Source: Streptomyces sp. NBC_01754 | GTDB taxonomy: Bacteria; Actinomycetota; Actinomycetes; Streptomycetales; Streptomycetaceae | Assembly: GCF_035918015.1 (NCBI RefSeq) | Contig: NZ_CP109132.1 | Span: 5,332,001-5,396,000, forward strand | Reading direction: 5' to 3' | Length of the DNA: 64,000 nucleotides | Shown: positions 2,375 through 49,039 of the stretch, piece after piece | Numbering within the stretch: position 1 is the stretch's first letter | Layout: every line of letters begins with the position of its first letter | The notes under the pieces: generated by a model | Told to the model about the DNA's origin: nothing | Seen by the model: only the letters and a program-made list of their open reading frames with translations | Databases searched by the model: none | Position numbers and translations under genes: made by a program

Positions 2375-4048
2375 TCAGCGGCACTCCGCCGCCGCCCGCT
2401 CGGACAGGGTGCGGCGGCAGACCTTGCCCGTGGGACCCAGCGGCATGGCCGCCACACGCAGGAGACGTTCGGGCAGCTTGCGTCTTTCCAGGCCCCGGCC
2501 CACCAGGAAACCGTCGAGGTCCGGCAGCGAGGGGGCCGGGACGCCGGGCACCGGCCGGACGCAGGCGCAGAGGCGCTCGCCGAGATCCGGGTCGGGCACC
2601 GGGACGCAGACGGCCTCCGCGACCGCCGGATGGTGGGCGAGTTCGCGCTCGACCTCGGCCGGGCTGATGTTGAGACCGCCCCGGATCACCACGTCCTTCA
2701 GCCGGCCCAGCACGAACAGCCGCCCGTCCGGGCCGAGCCGTCCGAGGTCACCGGTGCGCACCCAGCCGTCGGCGGTGCGGTAGCGCGCGTCCAGCGCCGG
2801 TTCCGCGACGTAGCACAAGGGGGTCATCGGCCCCTTGGCCTGGATCTCCCCCGCGCCGCCGGGCGGTACGGGGCGGTCGCCGGGGCCGGTGATCCGGACG
2901 CGGGTGACGGCCGGGTCCGGCACTCCGGCGTACGCCTCGTCCGCACCCGGTGACCAGACCGTGTGGCAGTTGACGCCGTCCGAGGAGCCGTACACCGTCA
3001 GCACCGGCCGCCCGAAACGGCGCACGCAGGCCAGGGCCGTCGCGTGGGGGAGCGCCGCACCGCTGGACACGAACGCCCGCAGCCCCGGGAAGTCCTCGCC
3101 GGGCGCGACCGGGGTCTCCGCGAGCCACCGCAGCATCGTCGGCACCCCGAAGACGTGCGTGGGCCGGTGGACGCCGAGCGCCCGCAGTGTCCCGCGGACC
3201 GAGAACGACGGCGGCACGACGAGTGTGCCGCCCAGCGCCGCCACGGTCACGACGCCGCAGGACCCGAAGGAGGAGGCCAGTGGGGCGAGGACGAGATGGC
3301 GGCGCGGCTCCCCGGTCGGGGCGAGGGCCCTCAGATACGCCGCCCGGCCCCCGCCCATCGCCTGGTGCGCGTAGGCGACCATCTTGGGCGCCGACTCGGT
3401 GCCCGAAGAGACGAGGACACGGGCGGGCGCGGCCGGATCCACCGGCACGGGGCGCCAGGGGCGCGTGGCCGCACCACCGAGCCAGCGGGTGCCCGGCAGA
3501 CCGCGCAGCGGACTGAACACCACCTCCACCGACGGCAGCCGCCCGACCACCGCCACATCGTCCGGGTCGGCGAACACGGCCGCACGCGCGTGGGAGGCGC
3601 CCAGCAGCGCGAGGGTGTCCCGGCTGCCGCCGCCCGGCGGGTAGGGCAGGGCGACCGCGCCGATCGCGTACACCGCGAGCTCCGCGGCGACGGCGTCCCG
3701 GCCCCCGGGCAGGCGCAGCGCCACCACGTCCCCCACGCCGATCCCCGCTTGGCCGAACAGGGCCGCGATACGGCGGACTTCGGCGTCCAGGGCGGCGAAG
3801 GTGAGGCCGCCGCCGGCCGGTTCGCCGGTCTCCACGACGGCCTGGCGGCCGGGACGGCGCCGTACGTGGGCACGGAAGAGGGAGTAGAGGTCGCGGTCGG
3901 GGCACAGACCCCGGTCGGTCCAGGCGCGGCGGTCCGCCCGGGGCACCCGGTCGGGGAAGGGCACCCCGCCGCGGGAGGTCCAGGGCGCCCTCGCAGCCGG
4001 TACTCCGGTCCCCGGCACCCGCGCCCCGGTCCCCGGCACCCCCGTCAC
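2375..4048 (-). CDS. AMP-dependent acyl-CoA synthetase/acyl ligase (last gene of leftward biosynthetic string)
   Basis: A 557-residue ANL-superfamily enzyme that should adenylate a carboxylic acid and pass it to CoA or a carrier. It carries the P-loop-like motif SSGTESAPK (214-222), a YGSSD motif, the hinge motif RTGDLGRLGPDGR, a GRLKDVVIRGGLNISPAEVE segment and the C-terminal catalytic lysine in GPTGKVCRR. The GTG start at 4048 overlaps the stop of the upstream CaiB gene as GTGA, which fixes the start and shows coupling. The substrate cannot be read from sequence. Neighbouring CoA-transferase and second ligase suggest handling of acyl-CoA intermediates. Confidence 0.85.
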   Translation of the reverse strand: MTGVPGTGARVPGTGVPAARAPWTSRGGVPFPDRVPRADRRAWTDRGLCPDRDLYSLFRAHVRRRPGRQAVVETGEPAGGGLTFAALDAEVRRIAALFGQAGIGVGDVVALRLPGGRDAVAAELAVYAIGAVALPYPPGGGSRDTLALLGASHARAAVFADPDDVAVVGRLPSVEVVFSPLRGLPGTRWLGGAATRPWRPVPVDPAAPARVLVSSGTESAPKMVAYAHQAMGGGRAAYLRALAPTGEPRRHLVLAPLASSFGSCGVVTVAALGGTLVVPPSFSVRGTLRALGVHRPTHVFGVPTMLRWLAETPVAPGEDFPGLRAFVSSGAALPHATALACVRRFGRPVLTVYGSSDGVNCHTVWSPGADEAYAGVPDPAVTRVRITGPGDRPVPPGGAGEIQAKGPMTPLCYVAEPALDARYRTADGWVRTGDLGRLGPDGRLFVLGRLKDVVIRGGLNISPAEVERELAHHPAVAEAVCVPVPDPDLGERLCACVRPVPGVPAPSLPDLDGFLVGRGLERRKLPERLLRVAAMPLGPTGKVCRRTLSERAAAECR

Positions 4049-5784
4049 GCGAACGTCCAGGGGCTGCGGACCGTGGCGTGCCCGCCCGGCGGGGCGGGGT
4101 CCACGGCACCCAGGAAACGGGGGTCGCGGGGGAGGGCGCCGAGATCGGTGCAGACCTCGGTGGCCGACGCACCGGCGAGGTCCAGCAGTTCCAGCCACCG
4201 GCCGGTGGGGCGGCGGCCGAAGCGCGCGGCCACGGCGCGCGGACCGGCCGCACCGGGGCCGGTGAGGCGGGCGAGCAGGGGAAGGTCGGTCCGGGTCCGC
4301 TCGCCCAGGTACAGACAGCCGTCGGCCGTGCGCACCGGCAGCTCCAGCGGCGACGGGGCCCGGCGCCGCACGGGAGGGCGGGGCACCAGTCCGGCGGCCG
4401 ACAGCAGCGAGGACGCGGCGCGCACCCCGTGTCCCCGGTGGGCGCGCGACAGCAGTCCCGCCACCACCGCGTGGGCGCAGAGCAGGCCGCCCAGGACGTC
4501 GGTGAGCGTCATGAGCGAGGGCGCGGGCACCTCCCCGGCCGGACGCAGGGCGGCGGCGAGACCACTGCGCGCCTGGGCGAGGTAATCGGTGCCGATCGGG
4601 GTGAGCCCGGGAGGGTACGCGTCACCGAAGCCGGAGGCGCCGGCGTGCACCAGCCCCGGCCGGATCCGCCACAGGTCCTCCGCGTCGAGCCCCAGGCGCG
4701 AGGCGCGGCCGGGGGCCCAGTTGTGTACGAACACGTCGGCGCCCGCGACGAGTTCGCGGACCGTGTCCCTGCCGGCGGCGGTCCGCAGGTCGGCCTCGAC
4801 GACCCGTTTCCCGGCGTTGAGCGCCGAGTGGCGTGCGGAGCCGCCACGGGCCAGCGGAGGCAGCCCGCGCATCGGATCGCCGCCCGGCGGTTCGACGCGG
4901 ACCACCTCGGCGCCCAGCAGCCGCAGGACATGGCCGGCGAGGGGGCCCTGTACCCGGCTGGTGGACTCCACGACCCGTACACCCGCCAACGGCAGGGCAC
5001 CACCGGGTGTACCGGCCGCGGGCACCGGCGCGTACAGCGGTCCCGCCGTCAGGCGCACCGGCTCGGCGGCCGCCGCGAAGGCCGGATCGTCCGGCAGCGC
5101 GACGAGGCTGACACCCTCGGCAGCGGCGGCGGCGCCCAGGGCGGCGAGCGGCGTGCTGCGGACCGCCGCCCGCAGCTCCCCGGGCAGCGGGCACACGGCG
5201 GTGGCGAACCGCTGCCGGAAGGGCTCCCAGCCGCGCCCCGCCGTCCGTGCGGGGACGCCGAGCCGGTGCCAGAACCCCCGCCACGCCTCGGGGTCGAGTG
5301 TCTCGATCTCGAAGGCGGTGCCCTCGGCCGAGACGAGCGTCGCACCACCCGGAGCGGTCGGTTCCGTCGGGCCGGAGTCGTCCACCGGGGCCGTGGCGGC
5401 GGCGAGGTACTGGGAGAGGGCGAGCAGGGCCCCCTGCGCGGCCGAGGTCCGCACCTCGTCCAGGCCGAGTCCCCGGTGCCGGGCGAGCAGGACCGCGCAG
5501 ACGCCCTGTGCGGCGAGCACCCCGGCGGCGGTCGCGGCGTAGTCCACACCGAGCGGGAGCGGCCGGCCGGCCGCTCGTCCGTGGACGTGCATGATCCCGC
5601 AGGCCGCCTGGACCGCGTCCTCGCCGGTGAGGGGCGCCGACACGGGCCCGGCCCAGTCCGCGGTCAGGCGTACCGCCCGCACGGCCCCGGGCGGTACGAC
5701 CCCGTCGGTCGCCGACCTCAGCAGACGGGCCGTCACCTCGGCCGTGGTGGCCGGGGTGACGAGGGTGGGGGTGGCGGTGCTCAC
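4045..5784 (-). CDS. Oversized CaiB/BaiF family (class III) CoA-transferase
   Basis: A 579-residue member of the CaiB/BaiF family, which moves CoA between carboxylates. A complete family N-terminal fold begins only near residue 265 (LPLAGVRVVE, then LGAEVVRVEPPGGDP) and includes VFVHNWAPG and a GTDYLAQARSG segment, where Asp400 is the likely catalytic residue. Before it are about 260 extra residues, in which a stretch near 60-130 itself resembles the alanine-rich CaiB helical region. Typical members are about 400 residues, so this looks like a one-and-a-half-domain protein. GTGA overlaps join it to the methyltransferase upstream and the ligase downstream. Confidence 0.8.
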   Translation of the reverse strand: MSTATPTLVTPATTAEVTARLLRSATDGVVPPGAVRAVRLTADWAGPVSAPLTGEDAVQAACGIMHVHGRAAGRPLPLGVDYAATAAGVLAAQGVCAVLLARHRGLGLDEVRTSAAQGALLALSQYLAAATAPVDDSGPTEPTAPGGATLVSAEGTAFEIETLDPEAWRGFWHRLGVPARTAGRGWEPFRQRFATAVCPLPGELRAAVRSTPLAALGAAAAAEGVSLVALPDDPAFAAAAEPVRLTAGPLYAPVPAAGTPGGALPLAGVRVVESTSRVQGPLAGHVLRLLGAEVVRVEPPGGDPMRGLPPLARGGSARHSALNAGKRVVEADLRTAAGRDTVRELVAGADVFVHNWAPGRASRLGLDAEDLWRIRPGLVHAGASGFGDAYPPGLTPIGTDYLAQARSGLAAALRPAGEVPAPSLMTLTDVLGGLLCAHAVVAGLLSRAHRGHGVRAASSLLSAAGLVPRPPVRRRAPSPLELPVRTADGCLYLGERTRTDLPLLARLTGPGAAGPRAVAARFGRRPTGRWLELLDLAGASATEVCTDLGALPRDPRFLGAVDPAPPGGHATVRSPWTFA

Positions 5785-6602
5785 CGCTCCACCCGCCCCG
5801 GCCGTCGGCCCTGCGTCGAGTACAGGACGCTGCTGGTCGCGCGGAAGTCCGGGTTGCGCATGAGCTCCCCCACCCGGTCCAGCTGACGAGGCGTCAATCC
5901 CTGGGCGAGGAGCCGTTCGCGGAGGTGCTGGACGTGGTGGAGTTGGAGCTGGAGATTCGGTGAACCCGCGTGACGCACGTCGACGTACGGGCGCACGTCG
6001 ATGTCGGCCAGCCCGGCGGACCGCAGCTCGGCGGGCACCCGCCTGCCCCAGTGCGGATCGCCGCCCCCGGCGCGCATCGCGGCGGACTTGGCCTCCAGGA
6101 AGGCGGTGTAGAGCTGTTCGGCCTCCGGTCCGGGGGCGAGGAGCGGAGGCTCGTAGGAGGTGTCGAACTCGTCGATCTGGAGCACCCCGCCGGGCCGCAG
6201 CGCGCGGACCAGCTTGCCGAGCACGGCACGCCGCTCGGGCAGGTGCTGGAGGACGAGCCGGGCCACGACGAGGTCGTAGCGGTTGTGCGGGAGGGGGTCG
6301 CGTACGAGGTCGTGGGCGCGCACCTCCAGGTTCGGGGCGGGGGAGATGTGGCGGGGATCCACATCGGTGGCGAGGACCGAGCCACCCGGGCCGACGCGTC
6401 CGGCGAGCCAGCGGGCGACGCTGCCGCCGCCCGCGCCGACCTCCAGGCACTGCCAGCCGGGACCGACCCCGGTGGCGGCGAGCCGGGGCAGGGTCACGGG
6501 GTCGTAGGCCGCGGCGAGACAGCGGTGCTGTTCCGTGCTGTGTTCGGTGGCGTTGTCGAAGACGTAACCCGGGGCGGGCGGTGTGGCCGTCGGCTGCGGC
6601 AC
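5781..6602 (-). CDS. Class I SAM-dependent methyltransferase
   Basis: A 273-residue Rossmann-fold methyltransferase. The SAM-binding glycine motif is LEVGAGGGSVARWL, followed by an acidic post-motif (LATDVDPRHI) and DLVVARLVLQHLPE, which resembles motif IV of small-molecule methyltransferases. The GTG start at 6602 has a GAAGGA site 8 bases upstream. It lies 41 bp after the ligase gene and overlaps the CaiB gene by four bases. It probably tailors the pathway product on O, N or C. The target atom is not predictable. Confidence 0.8.
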   Translation of the reverse strand: MPQPTATPPAPGYVFDNATEHSTEQHRCLAAAYDPVTLPRLAATGVGPGWQCLEVGAGGGSVARWLAGRVGPGGSVLATDVDPRHISPAPNLEVRAHDLVRDPLPHNRYDLVVARLVLQHLPERRAVLGKLVRALRPGGVLQIDEFDTSYEPPLLAPGPEAEQLYTAFLEAKSAAMRAGGGDPHWGRRVPAELRSAGLADIDVRPYVDVRHAGSPNLQLQLHHVQHLRERLLAQGLTPRQLDRVGELMRNPDFRATSSVLYSTQGRRPGRVER

Positions 6603-6643
6603 GGTGGAGTCCTTCGGTGGGAGAGGGGAGAGGAGAGGGGCTG

Positions 6644-8233
6644 TCAGGTCCAGCGGCCGGTGCCGCAGGTGCCGGCGTCCCCGGTGAGCTGCTCCAGCAG
6701 GGCGGAGCGGCGCACCTTGCCGGTACCCGTGCGCGGCACCTCGTCCCAGGTGAGCACGGCCGGCCCGGCCAGCGGGAGGCCCGCGGCGGCGGTGCGCCAG
6801 CGCACCGGGTCGAGCTCCCCGTCGGGGGTGACGACGACGGGGAGCGGGTCCTTGCCGTCCGGGCGGCCGAGCACCACGCACTCCAGGGCCTCGGGGAGCC
6901 CTTCCTCCAGCAGGTCCTCGGTCTCCAGGCAGCTGAGCCGGCCGGGACTGTCGACCTCGCGGTCCAGCAGGCGGACGCTGCCGTCGCGGCGCAGCACCCC
7001 GAGGTCACCGGTGTTCCACCACCCGTCGTGGTGCTTGTCGGCCCAGCGGTCCTCCTCGCCGACGTAACCGAGCGCGAGGGCGGCGGTCCTGGCCTGGAGC
7101 AGACCGGCCCGGCCGCGCGGCACCGGCAGCCGGGTACGGGGATCGACCACCCGCAGCCGGGTCTTGAGCGGGATGGGCCGTCCCAGGTCACGGGCGGTGG
7201 AGGCGGTACGGCCGTCACCGGCGGCCGTACGCGTGTGGAAGCGGAAGGTGAGGGGGCCGGTCTCGGTCTGGCCCCAGCCCTGCATCCACACCGGACGCGG
7301 ACGCGCGCTGGCGTGCAGATAGGCGCGCAGCGTGGGCGGGTGCACGGCGTCGTACGTGCTGATGTAGAGGCGGACCCGGCCGAAGGGGTTGTCGAGCCGG
7401 CGGGTGAGGCCCTGGAGGCGGACGTAGACGCTCGGCAGGGCCTCGACGATGGTGGGCCGGTGGGCACGCAGCAGCGGGTCCGCCCGGTCGGGGTCGGTGC
7501 GGGAGAGCATGACCACGGCCTTCGGCGCGCGCGAGAAGGCCACCGCCGTCCAGCAGAAGGTGCGCCCGTGGGCGTAGGAACCGGCGTGCAGCAGGGTGTC
7601 GTCGCGGCGGACGCCGATACCGGGGTACGGGACCGCCTCGAAGCGGGCCAGTTTGCGGATGATCGTGCGGGTGGAGTGCACGACGAGTTTGGGTACGCCG
7701 GTGGTGCCGGAGGTGTGGTTGACGACGAGGGGCTCGTCGTCGTGGCGCCGGTGGTGCACCGGGGTGCCGGGCTCGACGGTGGCGAGCGGTACGGCGCCGG
7801 GGGCGGCCGCACCGACGGTGAGGCAGGTCCGGGCGAGGGCGGCCAGGTCGATGCCGGCGGCCCGGCCGCGTTCCAGCACGGCGGCGGAGGTGACGAGCAC
7901 CGCGGGCCGGAGCCGGGCGAGGAGGGCGGCGAGGACCGGGGGGTCGAGCGCCCCGGAGAGCTGGGCGGGTACGGCCCCGGCGCGGACGGCGGCGCAGGCG
8001 AGGAGGTCGTAGTCCCAGTGGTTCTCCTTGACGACGGCGACGCGGTCGCCGCGGCCCGCCCCCGCCCCCGCGAGCCGGGCGGCGGTGGTGGCCACCAGCC
8101 GGGCCAGCCCGGGGACGGTCCAGTGGGTGCCGCCCTCGGGTGCGAGGTCGAAGGGCCGGTCGAGGTGGACGGCGGTGGTGTGGTTCCGGGCCGCGGCCTC
8201 GTCGAAGAGCGCCCCCATGTCGTACGGCTTCAC
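6644..8233 (-). CDS. AMP-dependent acyl/aryl ligase
   Basis: A 529-residue ANL enzyme, a second carboxylate-activating ligase in the same string. The ATP loop [10 protein letters not shown] is at 173-182, with [22 protein letters not shown] and the terminal TGTGKVRRS lysine motif. The usual GRxKD hinge region is degenerate ([11 protein letters not shown]). That can mean relaxed thioesterification or transfer to something other than CoA; this is inference. The GTG start at 8233 overlaps the upstream FAD-enzyme stop as GTGA. Sitting next to UbiA, it could activate an aromatic acid, but no binding-pocket code was applied. Confidence 0.82.
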
Positions 8234-9594
8234 CGGGCCACCGCCGGCGTCCTGGCGGGACGAGGGAGCCGGGCACCGAGCCGGCTGAGGACGCGGGAGG
8301 CGGCGAGGCCACCGGAGCGTACGGCGCCCTCGGACGCGGGGCGCAGCATGACCCAGTCGCCCGCGTACTCGACGGCGCGGGTGGACCGCGCGGCGAACCG
8401 CCCGCGCAGGTGCAGGGCGCGGGGGGTGGCCTCGGGCAGGGCGTGGGGGAAGGCGTGCACGAAGGTACGCGCGGTGGCGGCGGCGAGCCCCGGCACGTAG
8501 CGCTCGGCGGCGGCGAGCAGCCGGCGGGCCGTCTCCTCGGGCGGGCCGTCCAGGAGTCCGGGCACGGTGCGGGGGGCGGCCATGAGGGTCAGCAGCCCCT
8601 TGCCGTGCGGGGCACGGCCGGGGTGTTTGACGTGATCGGCGATGACGGCGGACAGGACGTCCTCCTCGACGGCGGGGGTCAGCAGCAGATAGAGGGGCCG
8701 GCCGCCGGCGGTGGGGGCCAGGGGCCGCTCCAGCAGGCAGCTGACCTTGAGCGCGGCGCTGAAGGTGCAGGCATCCAGGAACGCGCGTTCCTCGGGGGGC
8801 GCCTGGGGCCGCAGGGCCACGGCGACGGGGGCCGGTACGGCCAGGACGGCGGCCCGCGCGGTGACCTCCCCGTCGTCGAGGCGCACCAGCGTGCCGCCCC
8901 GCGTCTCGACGACCTCGTGCACGGTGCGGCCGGTCTCGACGTCCACCGTCCCGGCGAGCCGCCGGGCCAGCAGGTCCATACCGTCGTGGTAGGTGCGCCA
9001 GCCGGACGGCGGACCGACCTCGGCGAGCAGGCTCAGCATCGGGGCGGCGGTGGAGCGGGCGGTGTCCCAGCCGAAGCAGCAGCCCGCGAGCGGCTGGAGC
9101 AGGTAGTCGTGCAGGTCCGGGTGGTAACGCCCGGCGAGGGCACGGACGGTGGCGGCGCCGGCCGGGGTGTCCTCGGGCCGGTCGCCGTCGTAGGAGCCCG
9201 GGTGCCGGGCGATCGGCCCCAGCAGCCGGGCCAGGTCGAGACGGGCGCCGGGACCGAGCCCGCCGCCCGCGAACAGGGAGCCCGGCCCGGCGACCCCCGG
9301 GCGGGCCCGGCCTCCGCGCCACACGGCGACGCCGCCGCCGATCCGGGGCACGTCGGTGCGCGGGACGCCGAGGCGGCCGAGGAGTTCCCAGGTGGCGCGG
9401 TAGCCCCGGGAGGGGACCTGCTCGGCGCCCTGGTCGACGGTCCAGCCGTCGTGGCGGAAGGAACGCATCCGGCCGCCCACCTCGGTGTGGCTTTCGAAGA
9501 CGCGTACGGCCAGCCCGGCGCGGCGCAGTTCGTGGGCGGCGGTGAGACCGGCCGGCCCGGCGCCGACGACGGCGACGTCGAGGTCGTGGCTCAT
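8230..9594 (-). CDS. FAD-dependent oxidoreductase, protoporphyrinogen-oxidase/amine-oxidase fold
   Basis: A 454-residue flavoenzyme. It has an N-terminal dinucleotide-binding motif [19 protein letters not shown] (from about residue 9), an [12 protein letters not shown] arginine motif and a C-terminal FAD-contact region ([20 protein letters not shown]). These mark the HemY/amine oxidase/phytoene desaturase superfamily. It is not obviously heme biosynthesis, because no hem genes are nearby. It probably oxidises or desaturates a pathway intermediate, perhaps the prenylated product. The start ATG at 9594 overlaps the UbiA stop (ATGA). Confidence 0.8.
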
Positions 9595-10568: not shown

Positions 10569-10705
10569 TGTTCCTCGGTCTTTCGTGTCGTTCGTCTCGG
10601 GCCCGTGGGGCGGGCGGCGCGGGGCGGGTTCGGGCGCCCGCGGGTGACGGCGGCCCGTGGGTGACGGCGGCCGTGAGTGACAGGGCGTCCGTGTATGACG
10701 GGTCG

Positions 10706-13269: not shown

Positions 13270-13725
13270 TCCCGAAACCCTTCCGATCTTCGCCATGAAC
13301 GCACACAGACTTGCCTAAACGCGGGCCGGACGACAGCGGAAACAATCCTCTTCACACTTTGTAGTGCAAATTCCCGAGCTGGCTTGACGTCGGTTCGGTC
13401 CTACGGAAAAGCTCCATGGAGAATCTGGACGCGGGGGCGTCGGACACGGGCGTCGGGACGCGGGGGATCCACGAGTCCCGACTCCGCCCCTTGCCGACGG
13501 AGCCCCGGGCCTTCGGCCCGACGGCCGTTGCCGTACGGACCGGGGGACCGCGCGGGGAGCCCGGCCGCGCGTACCCGGGACCGGCTCCCACACGGATCGG
13601 ATCCCGCACCGGAGCGGGCCGCGCCCTGGCCCGGGCCCGTACGGCTGGTCCGGATCGGCTCCGCCCGCACCGCCCCCCGTCGCACCCTCACCCCGTCCCA
13701 CCCTCCCACCCCCGAAGGAGCCATC
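13270..13725. promoter_or_regulatory. Divergent control region of the two biosynthetic strings
   Basis: 456 bp without a convincing gene, separating leftward and rightward strings. An AT-richer patch at about 13335-13430 is the likely promoter zone. It holds the small palindrome CACTTTGTAGTG at 13355-13366, and a TTGACG at 13384-13389 is a possible rightward -35 element without a clear -10. A 6-bp stem with TTC loop sits at 13506-13520. No regulator gene lies in the locus, so control may come from elsewhere. Confidence 0.45.
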
Positions 13726-14706: not shown

Positions 14707-15635
14707 CGACACGGAACCAGGCCCCGCCGCACGCCCCCGCCCCGCACCCCCTGGCCGGTATCGGCGACGAGGCCGCCCCGTCCCTGGAGGGCCAACTCGC
14801 CGCCGTCCAGACACTCGGCTGGCAGGCCCTCGAACTCCGCTCCCTGGACGGCGTCCCCCTGGCCGACGTCCCCGCCGCCGACATCCGTGCGGCGGCCCGC
14901 CGACTGGCCGGTGCCGGGGTCCGGGTGGTCGCCCTCGCCTCCCGTATCGGCAACTGGTCCCGCCCCGTGACCGGCGACCTCGCTCAAGACCTCGACGAAC
15001 TACGGGTCATGGAGGAGTACGCGGCGCTGCTGGACTGCCGACGCGTCAGGGTCATGTCGTACCCCAACGCCGGTCTGCCGCAGGACGAGTGGGGCAGACG
15101 AGCGGTCGAGCGCCTGGGCCTGCTGACGGGCCGGGCCGAGGCCGCGGGACTCACCCTGCTCCACGAGAACTGCGCGGGCTGGGCCGGCTCCGACGCCGGT
15201 CGCACGCTGCGCCTGCTGAGCGAGGTGGACAGCCCGGCCCTTCGGGTGCTCTTCGACACCGGCAACGGCGTCCCCCACGGATACCGCGCCGCGGACCTGC
15301 TGGGGCCCCTGCTGCCCTACGTCGCGCATGTGCACATCAAGGACGCCGTGCGCAGTCCGGACGGTACGACGGCGTACGTCCTTCCCGGCGACGGGGAGGC
15401 GGAGGTGGAGCACTGCCTGCGGACCCTCCTGGCGGCCGGGTACACCGGCCCCCTCTCGCTCGAACCCCACCTGGCGCTGCGCCCGCACGAGGGCCTGCTG
15501 CGACCGGGCGAGGGCGCGGGGGAGCTCTTCGTCCGGGCCGGCCGCCGCCTGGAAGGGCTCCTGGCCGGGCTGACCGACGACACCGGGCCCGGCCACGCAC
15601 GGGGGAACGCCCCGGTGCCCAGGCGGATCCCATGA
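14703..15635 (+). CDS. Sugar phosphate isomerase/epimerase (xylose isomerase-like TIM barrel)
   Basis: A 310-residue AP-endonuclease-2/xylose-isomerase-fold protein. Metal-ligand motifs are visible: LLHENCAGW, VLFDTGNGV, HVHIKDAV and LSLEPHLAL. Relatives include inosose dehydratase, hydroxypyruvate isomerase and tagatose epimerase, so an isomerase, epimerase or dehydratase acting on a sugar or cyclitol is likely. The start ATG overlaps the upstream stop (ATGA) and its own stop overlaps the M20 start. Its position between two oxidoreductases supports a role on the same carbohydrate. Confidence 0.8.
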   Translation: MTTRNQAPPHAPAPHPLAGIGDEAAPSLEGQLAAVQTLGWQALELRSLDGVPLADVPAADIRAAARRLAGAGVRVVALASRIGNWSRPVTGDLAQDLDELRVMEEYAALLDCRRVRVMSYPNAGLPQDEWGRRAVERLGLLTGRAEAAGLTLLHENCAGWAGSDAGRTLRLLSEVDSPALRVLFDTGNGVPHGYRAADLLGPLLPYVAHVHIKDAVRSPDGTTAYVLPGDGEAEVEHCLRTLLAAGYTGPLSLEPHLALRPHEGLLRPGEGAGELFVRAGRRLEGLLAGLTDDTGPGHARGNAPVPRRIP

Positions 15636-17062
15636 CGACTCCACCGCACGCCCCACCACCGCGACCGCTCCCGCCGGAGTCCCCGCCCCCGCGGCGCCAG
15701 GCAGCCCAGCCCCCGGCACCGTACCCCCTGCCCGGCACGCCCCTCCTCGGCGAGGGGGACCACGAACTGCTCCTGAGCCTCCTGTCGTTGCCCACGGCCG
15801 GCCCTCTGGAGGGCGGTACCGCACCCGGGGCGGTCCGGTCCGCCCAGCGGCTCTACGCACGCGCCGCGGCCGAGGCCGGGATGCGCGTCGTACACCACGC
15901 TCCCCCCGGCCCGGAATGGCTGGACCGGCCCGGGGTACCCGCCGTGGTGCGCCGGGCGGCCGACGCCGACCCCGGGTTCCTCGCCGCCCAACCGAGCCTC
16001 CTGCTGCGCATGGGGCCGGAGCTGCCCCGCTCCCGCACCGTGATGTTCAACGTCCACCTCGACACCGTGGCCGGGGACGAGCCCGTGCGGTTCACCGGAC
16101 GGCGCTTCCACGGGCGGGGGGCCGTCGACGCCAAGGGCCCCGCCGTCGCGCTGCTCGCCGGTATCCGGGCGGCGGCGGCCACCCGTCCCGCACTGGGCCG
16201 GGACGTGGGCGTCCTGGTGCAGGCCGTGGCCGGTGAGGAGGGCGGCGCGATGGGCACGTACGGCACCCGCCCCCTGCTCGCCGCCGGCCACTACGGGCGG
16301 CTCAACGTGTTCTGCGAACCGACCGGCCTGCGGTCGCTGCCCCGGGCCACCGCCTCGATGACCGCACGGATCACCGTGGAGGGTGAGGACGCCGTCGACG
16401 ACCGCCCCGAGGCCGGACACAACGCGAGCGTGCTGCTCGGCCACCTCGCCCAGCATCTGGGCCACCGCCTCGACGGCGCCGTCCCCGGTACCCGCGTCTG
16501 CGTCGCGGGGCTGTACACGGGCGAACTGCACAACCGTGTCTACGGCCGCGGCACGCTGCTGCTCAACCTCTCCTACGGCCACGAGGACGACGGCCGCCGG
16601 CTCGCCGAGACGCTGGCCGAGGCACTCCGGGACGGCCTGGCGCGGTTCACCGAACGCTTCGGCGGGAAGGACGCGTTCGCGCGTACCGCCGAGGACGCGG
16701 CCGGTCTCGTCAGGCTCCGCTGGGACAAACGGGACCTGCCCGCGCTGCACGACTCCGACCTCTGGGCCGAGGCCCTGCTCGCCGGGGCGGGGGCGGCGCC
16801 CGCTCCCGCCGACGACCCCGGCTTCACCTGTGACGCCCTCTGGGCGAGCGGACTTCCCGGGGCCTTCACCACGGTCCTCGGCCCCGGCTCGCTGGAGGCC
16901 AACCACGCCCACGCCCGAGGCGAGTTCATCGACCTCGGCGACCTGGAGGAGTTCGCGCGGGTCGTCGCCCGGCTCCTCGGTGCCTTCGCCGATCGGCCCG
17001 CACCCCCTGCCCCCTCCGGGGAAGCCCCGGACCCCTGCCGGAAAGGCGGTACCACCGCGTGA
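15632..17062 (+). CDS. M20-family metallohydrolase (peptidase/deacylase)
   Basis: A 476-residue dinuclear zinc hydrolase. Family landmarks are FNVHLDTVAG (His142, Asp144), GRGAVDAKGP (bridging Asp166) and AGEEGGAMGT (Glu202 as base, Glu203 as ligand), followed by a dimerisation-type domain. M20 enzymes cleave peptides, acylated amino acids or carbamoyl amides. In a biosynthetic string it may remove an N-acyl protecting group or hydrolyse an amide intermediate (inference). A proline-rich N-terminus of about 30 residues precedes the fold. Four-base overlaps couple it on both sides. Confidence 0.82.
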   Translation: MTTPPHAPPPRPLPPESPPPRRQAAQPPAPYPLPGTPLLGEGDHELLLSLLSLPTAGPLEGGTAPGAVRSAQRLYARAAAEAGMRVVHHAPPGPEWLDRPGVPAVVRRAADADPGFLAAQPSLLLRMGPELPRSRTVMFNVHLDTVAGDEPVRFTGRRFHGRGAVDAKGPAVALLAGIRAAAATRPALGRDVGVLVQAVAGEEGGAMGTYGTRPLLAAGHYGRLNVFCEPTGLRSLPRATASMTARITVEGEDAVDDRPEAGHNASVLLGHLAQHLGHRLDGAVPGTRVCVAGLYTGELHNRVYGRGTLLLNLSYGHEDDGRRLAETLAEALRDGLARFTERFGGKDAFARTAEDAAGLVRLRWDKRDLPALHDSDLWAEALLAGAGAAPAPADDPGFTCDALWASGLPGAFTTVLGPGSLEANHAHARGEFIDLGDLEEFARVVARLLGAFADRPAPPAPSGEAPDPCRKGGTTA

Positions 17063-18198
17063 CGACCACCACCCCCCGACCCGAGGCGCCCACGGCCCTC
17101 GTCGGCCACGAGCGGCTGCTCCGCGCCGTCACGGGCCTCTTCACCCGCCGGGGGCTGCCCGTCGCACGGGCCCGCACGGCGGCCGAGGCGCTCTGCCACG
17201 GTGACCTCGTCGGGTTCCCCTCGCACGGACTGTTCAACCTGGAGCGGCTCTACCTGCCCCTGCTGGATACCGGGCGCTGCGACCCACGGGCCGAACCGGT
17301 GACCGTGAACGACCTGGGGGCCTGCGCCGTCGTCGACCACCGCGGAGCGCTCGGGCTGTGGGCGGCGGCGGAGGCGATGGACGACGCCGTGGCCCGTGCG
17401 CGGCGCCACGGCGTGGGAATCGTGGCCGTGCGCGGCGGCACCCACTTCGGCTGCGCCGGGTTCCACGCGGCGCGGGCGGCCGCCGCCGGCATGGTCGGCG
17501 TCGTGGCGGCCAACTGCGGCGGCCAGCGGCTCGTCCCGGCGCCGGGCGGCGGTCTGCCGCTGCTCGGCACCAATCCGCTGAGTGTGGCCGCGCCGGGCCT
17601 GCCCGGTCGCCCCTTCGTCCTCGACATGAGCACGACGGTGGTCCCCACCGGCCGGCTCCGGCTCGCCGAGCGGGAGGGCGCGCCGGTGCCGGCGGGCTGG
17701 CTGGAGGACGAGCGCGGCGCCCCCGTCACCGACCCCGGCGCCTACGACCGCGCCGAGGCCCGGCTGCGCTGGCTCGGCGGCGAGACCGGGACGGGCGCGT
17801 ACAAGGGCTTCGGGCTGGGACTGGCGGTCGAGGTGCTGGCCGCCGGACTGTCCGGAAGCGCCACCGGACCGGCCCCCGGGGCACTGACGGGCGACGGCGC
17901 CCAGGGCACGGACGACGGCGTCGGCTTCCTGCTGCTCGCGGTGGACGCCGTGCGACTGCGCCCCGGCGGGGACTTCACCCAGGCGATGCGGGACCTGTTC
18001 GGGACGGTCGCGGACTGTCCGCCGGCCCGGGACGCGGACGGCGAGCCGCGCTATCCGGGCTGGTGGGAGGCGGAACGGGCACAGCGCCGCCGCCGCGAGG
18101 GGGTCCCGCTGCCCGCCGGGCTGTACGAGGAGCTGGCGGCCCTGGGACTCTTCGACGCCACAGAGGACGCGGGGCACGAGGGCGGTGGGGCGCGATGA
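17059..18198 (+). CDS. Ldh2/MdhB-family malate/lactate/ureidoglycolate-type dehydrogenase
   Basis: A 379-residue NAD(P)H-dependent 2-ketoacid reductase of the Ldh2/YiaK fold, unrelated to Rossmann lactate dehydrogenases. Signature stretches are GTHFGCAGFHA, GTNPLSVAAPG, FVLDMSTTVVPTGRL and TGAYKGFGLGLAVEVL. The family reduces keto acids such as 2,3-diketogulonate or oxidises ureidoglycolate and sulfolactate. GTG 17059 overlaps the M20 stop. The substrate is unknown, but a carboxylated sugar or hydroxy acid would suit the neighbouring uronate-type and keto-sugar enzymes. Confidence 0.83.
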   Translation: MTTTTPRPEAPTALVGHERLLRAVTGLFTRRGLPVARARTAAEALCHGDLVGFPSHGLFNLERLYLPLLDTGRCDPRAEPVTVNDLGACAVVDHRGALGLWAAAEAMDDAVARARRHGVGIVAVRGGTHFGCAGFHAARAAAAGMVGVVAANCGGQRLVPAPGGGLPLLGTNPLSVAAPGLPGRPFVLDMSTTVVPTGRLRLAEREGAPVPAGWLEDERGAPVTDPGAYDRAEARLRWLGGETGTGAYKGFGLGLAVEVLAAGLSGSATGPAPGALTGDGAQGTDDGVGFLLLAVDAVRLRPGGDFTQAMRDLFGTVADCPPARDADGEPRYPGWWEAERAQRRRREGVPLPAGLYEELAALGLFDATEDAGHEGGGAR

Positions 18199-19190
18199 CG
18201 GACACCCGTGCCGCCCTCGGTGTGATCGGCCTCGGCGCGATCTCCCGCTACTACCTCGCCGCCCTGGAACACTCCCCGCACTGGCGGCTCGCCGCGGTGT
18301 GCGACGCCCGTCCCGAGGCGCTGCTCGGGCGCGGAGGCGGGGTACCGGCCTGGAGTGAGGCCACTGCGATGGTGCGGGAGGCCGGACTGGACGGGGTGGT
18401 CGTCGCCGTCCCGAACGACGCGCACGCCGAGGTGTGCCGGACGGCGCTCACCGCCGGTGTCCCGGTCTGTGTGGAGAAGCCCCTGGCCCTCACGGTGGCA
18501 CAGGGCCGCGAACTCACCGCCCTGGCGGCCGGATCCGGCACACCGCTGCTCACCGCGTTCCACCGCCGCCACAACCACGCCTTCCGTACCCTGCGGGACG
18601 CCGTCGTGGCGGCGGGGTCCCCCGTACGGCGGCTGCGGGTGCGCTATCTGGAGCGCATCGAGGAACACACCGGCGGCGAGTCCTGGTATCTGGAGCCGGA
18701 ACGCTGCGGGGGCGGGTGCGTCGCCGACAACGGGCCCAACGCCTTCGACCTCGTACGGCAGTTGACGGGCGAGGTCGCGATGGAGCACGCCTCCGTCGGC
18801 CGGGACGCGGCGGGCGTGGACCGGACGGCCCGGCTGCGGCTGCGGGCGGCCGGCGGGGCCGAGGCGGAGGTGCTGCTCGACTGGTCGTACGACGGGGAGC
18901 GGAAGGACGTCACCGTGACCTTGGCGGACGGCCGCACCCTGTACGCGGACCTCCTCGCGGGCCATTACGGCTTCAAGGGGTCGCTGTGGCACGAGTACGA
19001 GGGCATCCTCGCGGAGTTCGCCGCGCTGCGGGCCGAGGGCACGGGTCCGGGTTCGGGGTCCGGGCACGGTCCTGGGGACGGCGCGTCGGGTGGGCTGGCC
19101 TGCCTGGAACTCGCGGCGGCGGCGTACGCCCTGGAGGAGACCGGTCCGCCGTCCGGGCGGGAACCGCGCGGTGCGGCGGCCGGCACATGA
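18195..19190 (+). CDS. Gfo/Idh/MocA-family oxidoreductase, second copy
   Basis: A 331-residue sugar/cyclitol dehydrogenase with LGVIGLGAISRYYL at the N-terminus and CVEKPLAL for substrate and nicotinamide contact. In the usual GxxxDxxxH catalytic stretch it has CVADNGPNAFD. The Asp is present, but the His position appears to be Asn, which may alter chemistry or only reflect subfamily variation. A glycine/serine-rich insertion lies near the C-terminus. ATG 18195 overlaps the preceding stop. It is one of two Gfo/Idh genes matched by two DegT genes, suggesting two oxidation-transamination rounds. Confidence 0.83.
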   Translation: MTDTRAALGVIGLGAISRYYLAALEHSPHWRLAAVCDARPEALLGRGGGVPAWSEATAMVREAGLDGVVVAVPNDAHAEVCRTALTAGVPVCVEKPLALTVAQGRELTALAAGSGTPLLTAFHRRHNHAFRTLRDAVVAAGSPVRRLRVRYLERIEEHTGGESWYLEPERCGGGCVADNGPNAFDLVRQLTGEVAMEHASVGRDAAGVDRTARLRLRAAGGAEAEVLLDWSYDGERKDVTVTLADGRTLYADLLAGHYGFKGSLWHEYEGILAEFAALRAEGTGPGSGSGHGPGDGASGGLACLELAAAAYALEETGPPSGREPRGAAAGT

Positions 19191-19612
19191 GGAACACGGC
19201 GGAGGACGGTCCCAAGCGCCCTGTACGCGCCACGCTGGTGAAGGTGCTGCTGCACCGGCGCACGGACCGTGGCATGACCCTGCTGGAGTGGGCGAGCCGT
19301 TGTGTGCGGCGGGGCGAGGTGCACGAGCTGGTGGTGACCGACCAGTGGGACCCGCGCCCGGGCGCCCGGATCGACCGGGTCGGCTTCCTCGGATTCGCGG
19401 AGATGGAGTGCGGCGGGGTGGTGGACCGGGGGGACGTCATGACCATCGGCGGGGTCGAGTGCGGGACGGTGCTCGGCTTCGACGGCTGCCATCTGCCGAA
19501 CCACTACAACATCCTGGTGCGTGCTCCCCGGTTGCTGACCGGGGGGTCGCTGGGACTGCGGCCGGAGCTGCCGGTGGTCCTGCGCCAGGGCGCGGCGGAG
19601 GAGCCCGGCTGA
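19187..19612 (+). CDS. Small conserved-looking protein of unknown function
   Basis: A 141-residue soluble protein that I do not recognise. It has no signal peptide or membrane segment. Notable features are a glycine/cysteine-rich stretch (MECGGVVDRGDVMTIGGVECG), then GFDGCHLPNHYNILV, giving conserved-looking Cys, His and Asn residues that could bind metal or form a small beta-barrel. ATG 19187 overlaps the stop of the second Gfo/Idh gene, so it belongs to the rightward string and is its last member. A strong hairpin follows. Confidence 0.7.
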   Translation: MRNTAEDGPKRPVRATLVKVLLHRRTDRGMTLLEWASRCVRRGEVHELVVTDQWDPRPGARIDRVGFLGFAEMECGGVVDRGDVMTIGGVECGTVLGFDGCHLPNHYNILVRAPRLLTGGSLGLRPELPVVLRQGAAEEPG

Positions 19613-19632
19613 GCAGCGTGGACCGTACGCGG

Positions 19633-19668: not shown

Positions 19669-19683
19669 TGTGCGGGGGTGGGC

Positions 19684-20214
19684 TCAGCCCAGCAGCTCGA
19701 TGTCGAGACGGCCGTAGTGGTACTCGCGCACCACACGCAGCAGCTCGTCCTCGCTCAGCACGCCGTCACCGTTGGTGTCGACCTTGCGCAGGACCTCGCC
19801 GGCCTGGCCCGCCGGCAGACCGATGGCGACGAGCCACGCCTCGAACTCGTTGCTGTCGAGCACGCCGTCACCGTTGGTGTCCGAGAGGTCCACCAGGGAC
19901 TTGACGACCGGGCCGAGGGCGCGGTTGAAGGCGGCCTCGCCCTCGCTGAACAGCAGCTGCTCGGTCGCGCGCAGGAAGTTGTCCTCGGTGATCCCGGCCT
20001 GGGCCGAACCGGACTGCTCGGCGAGGTGGGCGTAGAGGGCCTCGAAGGCGTCGCGCAGCCCCTGCACCTCGGGGGCGTCCTCCGGCTTGCCGAAGCCCTG
20101 CGCGATACGGGCGGCCTCCTGCCGGAAGTCCTCGAGCTCCAGCAGGCCGTTGCCGTCGACGTCCCAGCGGGCGAAACGCTTGCGCAGGCGCTCGTTGGCC
20201 AGGGCAGTGCTCAT
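19684..20214 (-). CDS. EF-hand calcium-binding protein (calerythrin/sarcoplasmic type)
   Basis: A 176-residue cytoplasmic protein with three clear EF-hand loops: DVDGNGLLELED near the start, and DTNGDGVLDSNE and DTNGDGVLSEDE near the end. A degenerate second hand lies around AGITEDNF. The four-hand layout is that of calerythrin-like calcium buffers or sensors known from actinomycetes. ATG 20214 has AAGGAG eight bases upstream, which is preferred over longer frames. It has its own upstream gap of 190 bp, so it is probably monocistronic. Any link to the biosynthetic locus is positional only. Confidence 0.88.
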   Translation of the reverse strand: MSTALANERLRKRFARWDVDGNGLLELEDFRQEAARIAQGFGKPEDAPEVQGLRDAFEALYAHLAEQSGSAQAGITEDNFLRATEQLLFSEGEAAFNRALGPVVKSLVDLSDTNGDGVLDSNEFEAWLVAIGLPAGQAGEVLRKVDTNGDGVLSEDELLRVVREYHYGRLDIELLG

Positions 20215-20403
20215 GGATGTGCTCCTTCTTCTGTGTGGGTGTGGGGAAAGCGGTGCGATGGCGCACCAGACCCCGTGACTCGGGCAGGAGCGGAGCCACG
20301 GGGCCGCACGCACCGTGGAGGCGCGCGAGCCGGGAGAGGCCGCCGCGCGGGCGGGGCCTGGGAGTGGGGCCGGGGGTACAGGACCGGGGTAGGGGCCCGC
20401 AGG

Positions 20404-21765
20404 TCAGAGCGGGGTGACGTACCGGCCGGTGACGACCGTGCCCCGGGTGTCGAGCAGGGGCCGGCCGCGGCGCCCGAGTGCTCCGAGGTCGTAACAGGAG
20501 TGGAGCTGGAGGAGGACGACGAGGTCGGCCGTGTCCAGCGCCGCGTCCAGGTCGGTGGCCCGGGGCAGCGTCGTACCGCCCACGCGGAAGTGCTCCACGT
20601 ACGGGTCGTGGTAGGTGACCTGGGCGCCGGACTCGGCCAGCACCGCCGCGACGGCCCGTGCCGGGGTCTCGCGGATGTCGGCCACATCGGGTTTGTAGGT
20701 GACGCCCAGGAGCAGCACCCGGGCGCCGTCGGGTTTGATCCCGTGATCGTCCAGGACTCCGAGGGCCCGCTGGGCGACGTGCCCGGGCATGGAGTCGAGC
20801 ACCTGGCGGGCGGCGTCGAGCAACCGGAAGGAGTAGCCCTGGCGTTCCGCCTCGGCGGCGAGGTAGCGGGGATCGACCGGAATGCAGTGCCCGCCCACCC
20901 CGGGGCCGGGAGCGAAGCGGCCGAACCCGAAGGGCTTCGTCCCGGCACAGTGCAGGACGTCCCATACGTCGATACCGCTCTGCCGGCAGTAGAGGGCCAC
21001 CTCGTCGACGAGGGCGATGTTGACGTACCGGTAGGTGTTCTCCAGGAGTTTGGCCATCTCCGCCTCGCGGGTGCCTTTCGCGAGGACGATATCCCGGACG
21101 AAATGGGAATAGAAGGCGACAGTGCGCCTCGCGCAGTCGGTCGTGTATCCGCTGACGATTTTAGGAGTGTTCTCCACCCCCCATTCGCTGTTTCCGGGAT
21201 CGATGCGCTGCGGTGAATAGGCGAGATGGAAATCCCGCCCGGCGACGAGCCCGCTGCCCTTCTCCAGGAGCGGTTTCACGAGTTGTTCGGTGGTGCCCGG
21301 ATAGCTGGTCGACTCCAGCACCACGAGGGTGCCGGGCGTGAGCCGTCGGGCCACTTCCCCGGTGGCGGCCTCGACCTGCGCGAGGTCGGGCCCGCCGTCG
21401 GCGACCAGCCCGGTGGGCACGCAGACGACCACGGTACGGGCGTGGCGCACGACCTCCGGGTCGGTGCCCGCCCGGAAGTCCTGGGCGAGCATCGCCACGA
21501 CGTCCGCGTCGGTCACCCCGCCCACGTGCGACCGCCCCGAGCCGAGTCCGGAGGCGACCCGGGCGCTCACGTCGAGCCCCCGCACCCGCAGTCCCGCGGC
21601 ACAGGCGCTGCGCGCGAGCGGCAGCCCGACGTGGCCGAGCCCGACCACCACCAGGTCGGCGGTCTCGGACGCCGTGGGCGCCGAAACCTGCCGGGGCACG
21701 TGCACGGACGCCGGCTCGGACGTCGCCTCGGACGACGCGGTCCCCCGCTGCGTCGACTCGGCCAT
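20404..21765 (-). CDS. Nucleotide-sugar dehydrogenase (UDP-HexNAc/GDP-mannose 6-dehydrogenase family)
   Basis: A 453-residue NAD-dependent enzyme that oxidises the C6 hydroxyl of an NDP-sugar twice to a uronate. It has an N-terminal NAD loop (LVVVGLGHVGLPLA), the central TYRYVNIALVDEV helix and the catalytic cysteine, Cys294, in GGHCIPVDPRYLA. The C-terminal domain starts near LLLGVTYKPDVADIRETPA. Sequence style is closer to WbpA/WecC (UDP-N-acetyl sugars) than to UDP-glucose dehydrogenase, a judgement from motifs only. About 35 low-complexity residues precede the fold. The ATG shares one base with the upstream gene's stop. Confidence 0.85.
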   Translation of the reverse strand: MAESTQRGTASSEATSEPASVHVPRQVSAPTASETADLVVVGLGHVGLPLARSACAAGLRVRGLDVSARVASGLGSGRSHVGGVTDADVVAMLAQDFRAGTDPEVVRHARTVVVCVPTGLVADGGPDLAQVEAATGEVARRLTPGTLVVLESTSYPGTTEQLVKPLLEKGSGLVAGRDFHLAYSPQRIDPGNSEWGVENTPKIVSGYTTDCARRTVAFYSHFVRDIVLAKGTREAEMAKLLENTYRYVNIALVDEVALYCRQSGIDVWDVLHCAGTKPFGFGRFAPGPGVGGHCIPVDPRYLAAEAERQGYSFRLLDAARQVLDSMPGHVAQRALGVLDDHGIKPDGARVLLLGVTYKPDVADIRETPARAVAAVLAESGAQVTYHDPYVEHFRVGGTTLPRATDLDAALDTADLVVLLQLHSCYDLGALGRRGRPLLDTRGTVVTGRYVTPL

Positions 21766-22073
21766 CAGCCGGAGAAGCTGCCGCTGCCGGGGACGACGTG
21801 GGCCCCGTGCCCCGGCTGGACGGTCAGCCCGGGGGTGAGGCAGAACGGGTCCCCGTACACCGTCACCGGCCGGTCGCTCCGGTTGACGAGCACGTGGGCG
21901 TCGGCCGGGAGCTTGTGGCAGCCCCGGGGACGCTCGTACGTGGTCAACGGCGCCACCTCGGTACGGAAGACGACCACCTCACCCGTGTCCGCCGGGGCGG
22001 CCGAAGCCGCGGGCGTGAACGCGGTGAACAGTCCCGCAGCGGCGAGTACGGCTGCGGCCCCGAAGCGGTGCAA
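21765..22073 (-). CDS. Small secreted protein of unknown function
   Basis: 102 residues with a signal peptide (MHRFGAAAVLAAAGLFTAF, cleavage probably after PAASA) and a mature part of about 78 residues holding two cysteines (RPRGCHKL and DPFCLTP) that could form one disulfide. The only usable start in frame is TTG at 22073; an in-frame TGA lies two codons upstream. A GGAAAAGAG-like site precedes it. It reads into the nucleotide-sugar dehydrogenase gene with a one-base overlap, forming a two-gene unit. No family is recognised. Confidence 0.6.
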   Translation of the reverse strand: MHRFGAAAVLAAAGLFTAFTPAASAAPADTGEVVVFRTEVAPLTTYERPRGCHKLPADAHVLVNRSDRPVTVYGDPFCLTPGLTVQPGHGAHVVPGSGSFSG

Positions 22074-27755: not shown

Positions 27756-30353
<2,598 letters not shown>

Positions 30354-49031: not shown

Positions 49032-49039
49032 CGCGCGCG

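Follow-up and report, generated by a model that had tools for sequence, protein, structure and literature searches.

Gene content of the locus

We analysed a putative biosynthetic locus of Streptomyces sp. NBC_01754, whose genome comprises 7.77 Mb in two contigs. The locus lies in a stretch of 64,000 nucleotides (contig NZ_CP109132.1, positions 5,332,001 to 5,396,000), which as a whole is called the window below and to which all coordinates refer; loci fetched for comparison, genomes and proteins carry L, G and P numbers, respectively. Fourteen genes at 2375–19612 form two divergent strings separated by an intergenic gap of 456 bases, and two further genes, encoding an EF-hand protein and the nucleotide-sugar 6-dehydrogenase UGD, extend the unit to 21765. 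By Pfam assignment, the minus-strand string consists of ligA, CaiB, MT, ligB, FADox, UbiA, DegT1 and DegT2, and the plus-strand string of Gfo1, TIM, M20, Ldh2, Gfo2 and DUF6917. A preliminary description of this DNA had counted fourteen genes with a nucleotide-sugar dehydrogenase nearby, and every enzyme that it named was found, while the Ldh_2-family dehydrogenase, DUF6917 and the EF-hand gene were missing from its inventory. It had also pointed to four-base overlaps between the genes. The start codons were assigned from overlaps and from the lengths of homologues, i.e. they are predicted starts, and with these an exact four-base overlap is seen at 10 of the 12 same-strand junctions, the other two being gaps of 41 bases (MT/ligB) and 137 bases (UbiA/DegT1).

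On the minus strand, ligA (2375–4048) encodes a predicted AMP-binding acyl or aryl ligase of 557 amino acids from GTG 4048, or 529 from 3964 (PF00501, 167 bits, and PF13193, scored from the shorter start), and overlaps CaiB by 4 bases. CaiB (4045–5784) is a class III CoA-transferase with an additional N-terminal half, matching PF02515 in two stretches (205 bits), and MT (5781–6602) is an S-adenosylmethionine-dependent methyltransferase (PF08241/PF08242). The second AMP-binding ligase, ligB (6644–8233; PF00501, 156 bits), has its HTSGTTG and C-terminal Lys motifs conserved over 61 sequences. FADox (8230–9594) has the flavin amine-oxidase fold (PF01593, 121 bits) and is HpnE-like at a low score (75 bits, under the cut-off of 283). 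The UbiA-family prenyltransferase (9591–10568; PF01040, 60.1 bits against a cut-off of 34.2) retains both Asp motifs, DDxTGxxDGSD and YSNTNDxxGD, at 97% or more over 62 sequences. Two sugar-type pyridoxal phosphate aminotransferases with a conserved Lys complete the string: DegT1 (10706–12007; 433 amino acids from GTG 12007; PF01041, 300 bits) and DegT2 (12004–13269; 421 amino acids from ATG 13269; PF01041, 342 bits). Their nearest solved chains, compared from the shorter starts, are 7b0d and WbpE for DegT1 and 2oga and WbpE for DegT2.

The plus-strand string begins with Gfo1 (13726–14706), a divergent Gfo/Idh/MocA oxidoreductase (PF01408, 25.6 bits, cut-off 24), and TIM (14703–15635), similar to xylose-isomerase-like sugar isomerases, epimerases and dehydratases (PF01261, 96 bits), with conserved Glu/Asp/His/Glu positions. 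M20 (15632–17062; 476 amino acids from ATG 15632; PF01546, 61 bits) is a predicted metallo-amidohydrolase with conserved His/Asp/Glu/His positions. Ldh2 (17059–18198; PF02615, 305 bits) is a malate/lactate-type NAD(P) dehydrogenase; solved relatives in its family, Ldh_2, include piperideine-2-carboxylate reductase, and YiaK belongs there as well. Gfo2 (18195–19190; PF01408, 76 bits, and PF22725, scored from start 18222) is a second Gfo/Idh/MocA oxidoreductase, followed by the DUF6917 protein (19187–19612; 141 amino acids from ATG 19187; PF21891, 163.7 bits against a cut-off of 27, from the shorter start). Beyond it, on the minus strand, lie the EF-hand calcium-binding protein, a syntenic partner (19684–20214; EF-hand families), and UGD (20404–21765; TIGR03026, 366 bits against a cut-off of 190), whose Cys context GVGGHC is conserved in 12 sequences. 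Alignments thus show conservation of the expected catalytic positions: the UbiA Asp residues, the DegT Lys, the metal ligands of M20 and TIM, the ligase motifs and the Cys context of UGD. The conserved columns were matched to catalytic roles by what is generally known of these families. Immediately upstream of UGD, a 70-amino-acid protein is encoded at 21765–21977 (minus strand); it has no Pfam match, and in L010, L033, L040, L052, L099 and L102 a relative of it adjoins UbiA or UGD or lies not far from them.

A Pfam search at E 0.001 found no polyketide synthase, condensation or terpene-synthase domain among the 16 genes, in agreement with the earlier statement that polyketide synthase, nonribosomal peptide synthetase (NRPS) and terpene cyclase are absent. 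Neither a glycosyltransferase domain nor a gene for aromatic-acid supply was recognised among them by Pfam. AMP-binding ligases share a superfamily with NRPS adenylation domains, and ligases alone make no NRPS; against the NCBIfam NRPS adenylation model, ligA and ligB score 121 and 97 bits, far under the cut-off of 317. In the NCBIfam matches inspected (the best 25 for both ligases and FADox), a curated cut-off was passed by UGD only. ligB was also considered as a diazotase (NF058622, 68 bits), but generic ligase models reach 154 bits and nothing follows from the match. Elsewhere in the genome, six places beyond the window match polyprenyl synthase, and the nucleotide-sugar-dehydrogenase family occurs at seven places, one of them being UGD of the locus; hence, the locus is not the only source of either supply in this genome.

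Conservation of the unit

With UbiA as bait and one genome per species, 62 distinct loci were collected, spanning Streptomyces, Saccharopolyspora, Amycolatopsis, Saccharothrix, Lentzea, Actinophytocola, Actinomadura, Catenuloplanes and Actinoplanes; one of them lies on a short contig that its label assigns to a Melainabacteria bin. After gene calling with a gene finder, the order and strand of the window were found to be kept in 49 of the 62 loci and rearranged in 13. Gene counts refer to the 54 loci that exceed 20 kb, the 8 shorter ones being left out. UbiA (the bait), FADox, ligB, DegT1 and DegT2 were present in all 54, MT in 53, Gfo1 and M20 in 52 each, TIM in 51 and Ldh2 in 48, followed by CaiB and ligA (45 each), DUF6917 (44), Gfo2 (43), the EF-hand gene (40) and UGD (36), the lowest counts, those of the last genes listed, being partly due to fetched stretches that stop there. 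Both CaiB and ligA were missing within the stretch in 9 of the 54 loci, and the acyl branch therefore seems optional. The flanks mostly differ between loci; 12 loci share one flank family, and 8 contain a common inserted family. These results confirm that the locus is one real, conserved unit. The earlier view that its genes act together thus holds, and the marker genes proposed for a neighbourhood search do recur together across actinomycetes.

A search of 392 genomes of the genus at a threshold of E 1e-15 gave relatives of UbiA in 57. We grouped these by hand on their best UbiA place into a close group of 26 genomes (63–100% identity), a middle group of 18 (45–56%), which includes the 55% complete genome G375 with UbiA in pieces, and a distant group of 13 (33–38%). 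DUF6917, which occurs in 52 of the 392 genomes, was present in 25 of the 26 close, 15 of the 18 middle and none of the 13 distant genomes; the locus of the sole close-group genome lacking it, G325, spans only 2,569 bases (L093). In total, 40 of 44 genomes with a close or middle UbiA carry DUF6917 versus 12 of 348 others (Fisher p 2.9e-39, a value that serves as a guide only, since the species are related and shared ancestry is uncorrected). A draw from the class comprised 394 genomes of 137 genera, of which 11 genomes and 4 genera had DUF6917; in a draw from the phylum it was found in 1 of 396 genomes, namely that of the locus itself.

A portable sugar-type module

Comparison of the loci divides the unit into two parts. 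UGD, Gfo1, DegT2, DegT1, TIM, M20, Ldh2, Gfo2 and DUF6917 constitute what we call module X, and its putative product is called X; the second module, with UbiA, FADox, an AMP ligase and a methyltransferase, appears to be a prenylating core. In G003 the cluster is split over two contigs: L101 carries UbiA, FADox and ligB, and L178 the remaining 13 genes. For further comparison we fetched 20 of the 24 middle UbiA places (G375 was left out), 14 of the 17 distant places and 20 stretches around DUF6917. In several loci of middle-group genomes, module X (Gfo1, TIM, M20, Ldh2, Gfo2 and DUF6917, often with DegT2, DegT1 and UGD) adjoins genes for polyprenyl synthase, DXS, IspG, IspH, BenE or MMPL proteins; by Blast, polyprenyl synthase, DXS and IspG were each found in 6 of the 20 middle loci, IspH in 3 and MMPL in 8. 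Prenyl-supply genes stand immediately beside module X in L113, L175, L179 and L180 (families tested on L113 and L179), which suggests that prenyl supply is part of module X chemistry. On the plasmid NZ_CP107870 of strain NBC_00490 the set is dispersed across ~40 kb, DUF6917 forms the N-terminal part of a DXS protein, and the cluster also holds Streptomyces antibiotic regulatory protein (SARP) and AfsA-related hotdog genes, which are typical of antibiotic clusters.

Within the genus, twelve genomes that contain DUF6917 but no relative of UbiA were examined, and seven of them hold UGD (38–53% identity), two DegT, TIM, M20, Gfo2 and DUF6917 together. Four of these seven loci (L163, L164, L170 and L171) contain Ldh2 and lack Gfo1, and carry TrpD, TrpC, TrpB and TrpA genes with a B3/4-domain protein; TrpE, TrpG, TrpF-like and PaaK-like genes are also present in three of the four. 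The families were tested on L163 only, in which TrpC and TrpE lie below the cut-offs, and the other loci were assigned by Blast to L163. The remaining three (L165, L166 and L169) contain Gfo1, lack Ldh2 and carry enolase-superfamily and GNAT-like proteins, with two ATP-grasp ligases in addition in L169 (families tested on members from L165 and L169, others by Blast). Gfo1 and Ldh2 are thus mutually exclusive in the seven loci, and both occur in most UbiA loci and in Rhizobium. The B3/4 domain is found in tRNA editing, and the setting with trp genes may perhaps point to a tryptophan-related antimetabolite with self-protection.

In Rhizobium sp. T136, the plasmid pT136b (L185, 8.3–20.5 kb) carries Gfo1, DegT, DegT, TIM, M20, Ldh and Gfo2 in the order of the window at 32–47% identity, next to an EctB-type transaminase, a histidine-type methyltransferase, a transporter of the major facilitator superfamily and an ATP-grasp protein. 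UGD and DUF6917 are absent from the 29 kb of this plasmid that were inspected, and a plasmid search with DUF6917 at E 1e-5 gave no match elsewhere on it and none in Rhizobium at all. It is a conjugative plasmid from a root-nodule isolate. A search of plasmids with the Rhizobium M20 gave 4 records and no further genera, and relatives of the Rhizobium Gfo2 occur, among the matches listed, in Paenibacillus, Bacillus, Brenneria, Reinekea and others. No matching paper on the Rhizobium and Paenibacillus settings was found in the open-licence literature. Taken together, the sugar-type half of the locus is a portable module reused in different gene clusters.

In all seven UbiA-less module loci Gfo2 and DUF6917 form one reading frame. 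The two were also found in one protein in 9 of the 120 listed among 982 relatives of the Rhizobium Gfo2, as in the Rugamonas protein P0314, the domains of which were checked. Such fusion to a sugar-type oxidoreductase turns a family without function into a testable enzyme. The predicted model of DUF6917 is all-beta (mean predicted local distance difference test score 86, 38 sequences in the alignment), and among its Cys, His, Asp and Asn residues some are invariant in the alignment. A structure search with the model gave weak beta-barrel matches only, and a sequence search of the PDB with DUF6917 reached E 0.71 at best. The matches being too weak, assignment of a function from the model was dropped, and the lack of better ones is no evidence for a new fold. 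In L172, DUF6917 of the window gives no tblastn match, yet the Pfam model matches. A stand-alone relative lies on a Thermomicrobium roseum plasmid (L184, 10.9–16.2 kb) beside LysX, a proline-racemase-family gene and a thiamine diphosphate (ThDP) enzyme.

Proposed chemistry and its alternatives

Five kinds of aromatic-acid genes were used as Blast queries on the UbiA loci: chorismate-binding, PobA-like, class IV lyase/aminotransferase, tryptophan dioxygenase and kynureninase (families checked by Pfam). Such genes were found in none of the 62 close and none of the 20 middle UbiA loci, and in 9 of the 14 distant ones; 13 of those 14 lack any gene of module X at an identity of 38% or higher. In most distant loci, aromatic-acid genes thus take the place of module X. 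In an IQ-TREE phylogeny of 48 UbiA proteins, 13 distant ones were separated from the other 35 with support of 100/98. The simplest reading of this correlation over related loci would be that two acceptor suppliers replace each other, distant UbiA enzymes using chorismate- or tryptophan-derived acids and the closer ones the product of module X. With no aromatic-acid supply gene recognised among the 16 genes, and with such genes but not module X in most distant loci, the sugar-derived product itself fits better as the prenyl acceptor. By eye, nitrite-type genes were seen near some middle and distant UbiA loci, and CreE/CreD-like genes (the nitrosuccinate pair) near UbiA and ligB relatives in L109, L121, L122 and L123.

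We propose, with a probability of about 0.42, that the locus is a meroterpenoid-type biosynthetic cluster, in which module X makes a uronate-derived, probably heteroaromatic, N-containing acid that is prenylated by UbiA. In the order of steps that we infer, UGD would oxidise a UDP-hexose to a UDP-uronate, and the Gfo/DegT pairs would twice oxidise and transaminate ring carbons. TIM, Ldh2 and Gfo2–DUF6917 would open and rearrange the chain, M20 may strip a protecting acyl group, and the ring would then close to an N-containing, probably heteroaromatic, carboxylic acid. The piperideine-2-carboxylate reductase among the Ldh_2 relatives suits a cyclic imine, being compatible with it and no proof of it. 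UbiA would add a polyprenyl chain, drawn from the general pool of the cell, to the acceptor X, FADox may oxidise or cyclise the prenylated product, and MT would methylate it. Finally, ligB would activate the carboxylate; ligA and CaiB, which most loci possess, would bring a further acyl-CoA to the putative product. A wider proposal, which we regard as doubtful, is that module X represents an undescribed portable pathway from hexuronate to an N-heteroaromatic or comparable acid, with Gfo2–DUF6917 as a new pair for the decisive ring-forming step in actinomycetes. The pathway would then be reused by actinomycetes, rhizobia and others, its product being prenylated here and coupled elsewhere to tryptophan or peptides via AMP ligases and ATP-grasp enzymes, and would delimit a class of natural products missed when searches are keyed to core synthases.

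A number of observations weigh against the proposed chemistry. Module X is incomplete in places, L163, L164, L170 and L171 being without Gfo1 and L165, L166 and L169 without Ldh2, and the Rhizobium module has neither UGD nor DUF6917, so that a uronate start and DUF6917 are dispensable in some loci; as each of Gfo1, Ldh2, UGD and DUF6917 is lacking somewhere among the module loci, our confidence in both proposals is slightly lowered. In L167, L168, L173 and L174, DUF6917 has threonine-synthase-like and ThDP genes as neighbours and no module X, an ATP-grasp gene being present as well in three of these. No gene for UDP release or aromatisation was recognised in the unit, DUF6917 being put forward simply as the leftover candidate, and the DegT enzymes resemble nucleotide-sugar aminotransferases, which would equally fit an aminosugar that is never aromatised. 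Polyprenyl synthase was found by Blast within none of the 62 close loci, and in 9 of the 20 middle loci not a single gene of module X lies within 20 kb; six of the nine genomes concerned hold DUF6917 elsewhere, and G289, G380 and G385, the middle-group genomes lacking DUF6917, make up the rest. In L107 and L108, module X lies just outside the 20 kb stretch (as L179 and L180). Among the distant loci, 5 of the 14 have no aromatic-acid gene either, and four belong to genomes in which DUF6917 and a middle-group UbiA are present as well (G338, G354, G184 and G058). Moreover, the distant UbiA of L118 falls on the module X side of the tree with a very long branch, and its locus, one of the nine with aromatic-acid genes, overlaps the module X locus L115 on the same contig.

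In the preliminary description, the simplest product was taken to be a carbohydrate or cyclitol that bears an amino group and is linked to an acyl moiety or to a prenylated aromatic one. The link between sugar-type enzymes and prenylation stands, but the rest is not borne out by the gene set, no aromatic-acid supply gene or glycosyltransferase being recognised among the 16 genes, and the cyclitol version becomes a rival that we consider rather unlikely. According to it, X is a diamino-cyclitol or amino-uronic acid that ligB links as an amide to a prenylated aromatic acid of primary metabolism, e.g. 4-hydroxybenzoate. Two Gfo/Idh and two DegT enzymes are the set of diaminocyclitol pathways such as those of streptidine and actinamine, the best NCBIfam match of Gfo2 is inositol 2-dehydrogenase (66 bits, below the cut-off of 355), and the top solved match of DegT1 is a chain named glutamine-scyllo-inositol transaminase. 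The ATP-grasp ligases beside module X in L169 and Rhizobium make it plausible that X forms amides, and the Rhizobium module does without UGD. However, the five kinds of aromatic-acid genes are missing from the 62 close and 20 middle loci, UGD accompanies module X in actinomycete loci and would be superfluous for a cyclitol route, and Pfam recognised among the 16 genes no inositol phosphate synthase, 2-deoxy-scyllo-inosose (DOI) synthase, kinase or phosphatase domain and no valiolone-type cyclase, the dehydroquinate-synthase-family domain of 2-deoxystreptamine/valiolone-type clusters being absent. It is quite unlikely that the cluster has already been published, beyond the open-licence literature, for a known compound. 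The literature search was confined to open-licence papers, prenylated pyrroles and sugar-derived aminopyrrole acids do exist, and a cluster whose closest group occupies 26 of 392 genomes is not rare and could match a familiar compound; on the other hand, no description was found in those papers, and only UGD passes an NCBIfam cut-off among the matches inspected.

An envelope function seems very unlikely to us. UbiA would then act like the phosphoribosyl-decaprenyl synthases, members of its superfamily, or alkylate a sugar hydroxyl, and yield a surface lipid-linked amino-uronic acid; such a glycolipid would agree with the fact that the conserved genes of the close loci include neither a prenyl synthase nor a transporter dedicated to the pathway, with the frequent EF-hand and UGD neighbours and with a gene order that is stable across many genera. 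It agrees less well with the patchy spread of close and middle UbiA within the genus (44 of the 392 genomes searched), with the MMPL exporters (8 of 20) and methylerythritol phosphate pathway genes of middle-group relatives, and with the antibiotic-type SARP and AfsA-related hotdog genes in the plasmid cluster of NBC_00490. A chance neighbourhood of unrelated operons for sugar and fatty-acid metabolism is hardly credible: the Ldh_2, Gfo/Idh and CaiB families are also catabolic, but synteny in the main refutes it, given the order and strand kept in 49 of 62 loci while most flanks differ, the joint loss of ligA and CaiB in 9 of 54 loci and the complementary halves in G003. Assignments to 3-amino-5-hydroxybenzoic acid/kanosamine, DOI-type aminoglycoside and Wbp-type pathways were rejected, as parts of each are missing among the 16 genes (Pfam).

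The UDP-2,3-diamino-uronate pathway of O-antigen runs through WbpA, WbpB, WbpE, WbpD and WbpI. The locus shares with it the UGD (TIGR03026), Gfo/Idh (Gfo2, PF01408) and DegT families, and for either DegT enzyme WbpE is one of the closest solved chains; the locus differs in lacking a WbpD-type acetyltransferase, a WbpI-type epimerase and a glycosyltransferase among the 16 genes (Pfam), and in its extra TIM, M20, Ldh_2 and DUF6917. In the congocidine/pyrrolamide pathway, the precursor 4-acetamidopyrrole-2-carboxylate is of sugar origin (Lautru 2012, cited in PMC4047045). Sugar-processing enzymes there lead to a heteroaromatic carboxylic acid coupled via its carboxyl group, similar to what we propose for X. 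The NRPS condensation domain of that system is absent from the locus. The congocidine precursor pathway is not known to include M20, Ldh_2, a TIM barrel or DUF6917. The zigralone cluster zig of Micromonospora zingiberis, in the available part of its description, uses a UbiA-like prenyltransferase on a tryptophan-derived indole (PMC13307353). It resembles the locus in the UbiA-like prenylation of a small acceptor and in having an aminotransferase and methyltransferase(s); it differs by its own polyprenyl synthase, TPP (thiamine pyrophosphate) enzyme, five P450s and Pyr4-like cyclase, none of which is among the 16 genes, and the zig gene list in that part of the source names no sugar-type module (PMC13307353). 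Conkatamycin, as covered by the available part of PMC9448795, was set aside as unrelated. In the open-licence literature searched, we found no paper describing the cluster, as judged by titles, the beginnings of abstracts and passages, and none naming DUF6917, which accords with the earlier remark that no characterised pathway has this gene set.

If the proposed meroterpenoid chemistry is correct, a sizeable class of prenylated natural products has been overlooked for lack of the enzymes that search programs target, given that the closest UbiA group alone occupies 26 of the 392 species genomes of the genus; as module X is reused, there would also be a route to its product, since the same block should recur in several compounds. 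It is plausible, going by their rules, that rule-based cluster finders would miss the locus. Synteruptor finds non-classical clusters, and the one in the available part of the source, for sphydrofuran, is a different cluster from this locus (PMC11195616).

Elsewhere in the window, a 345-amino-acid frame at 22376–23413 (minus strand) looks by eye like a fragment of a laminarinase-type glycoside hydrolase and has no Pfam match at 0.001. A predicted protein of 919 amino acids at 46284–49043 (minus strand), likewise without a Pfam match at 0.001, adjoins a purine/cytosine-type permease. Glycogen/maltose-1-phosphate genes occupy 27756–39347, encoding GlgB, a maltokinase-cap protein, a maltogenic-amylase-type protein (TreS-like by eye), GlgE and a DUF3417 phosphorylase.

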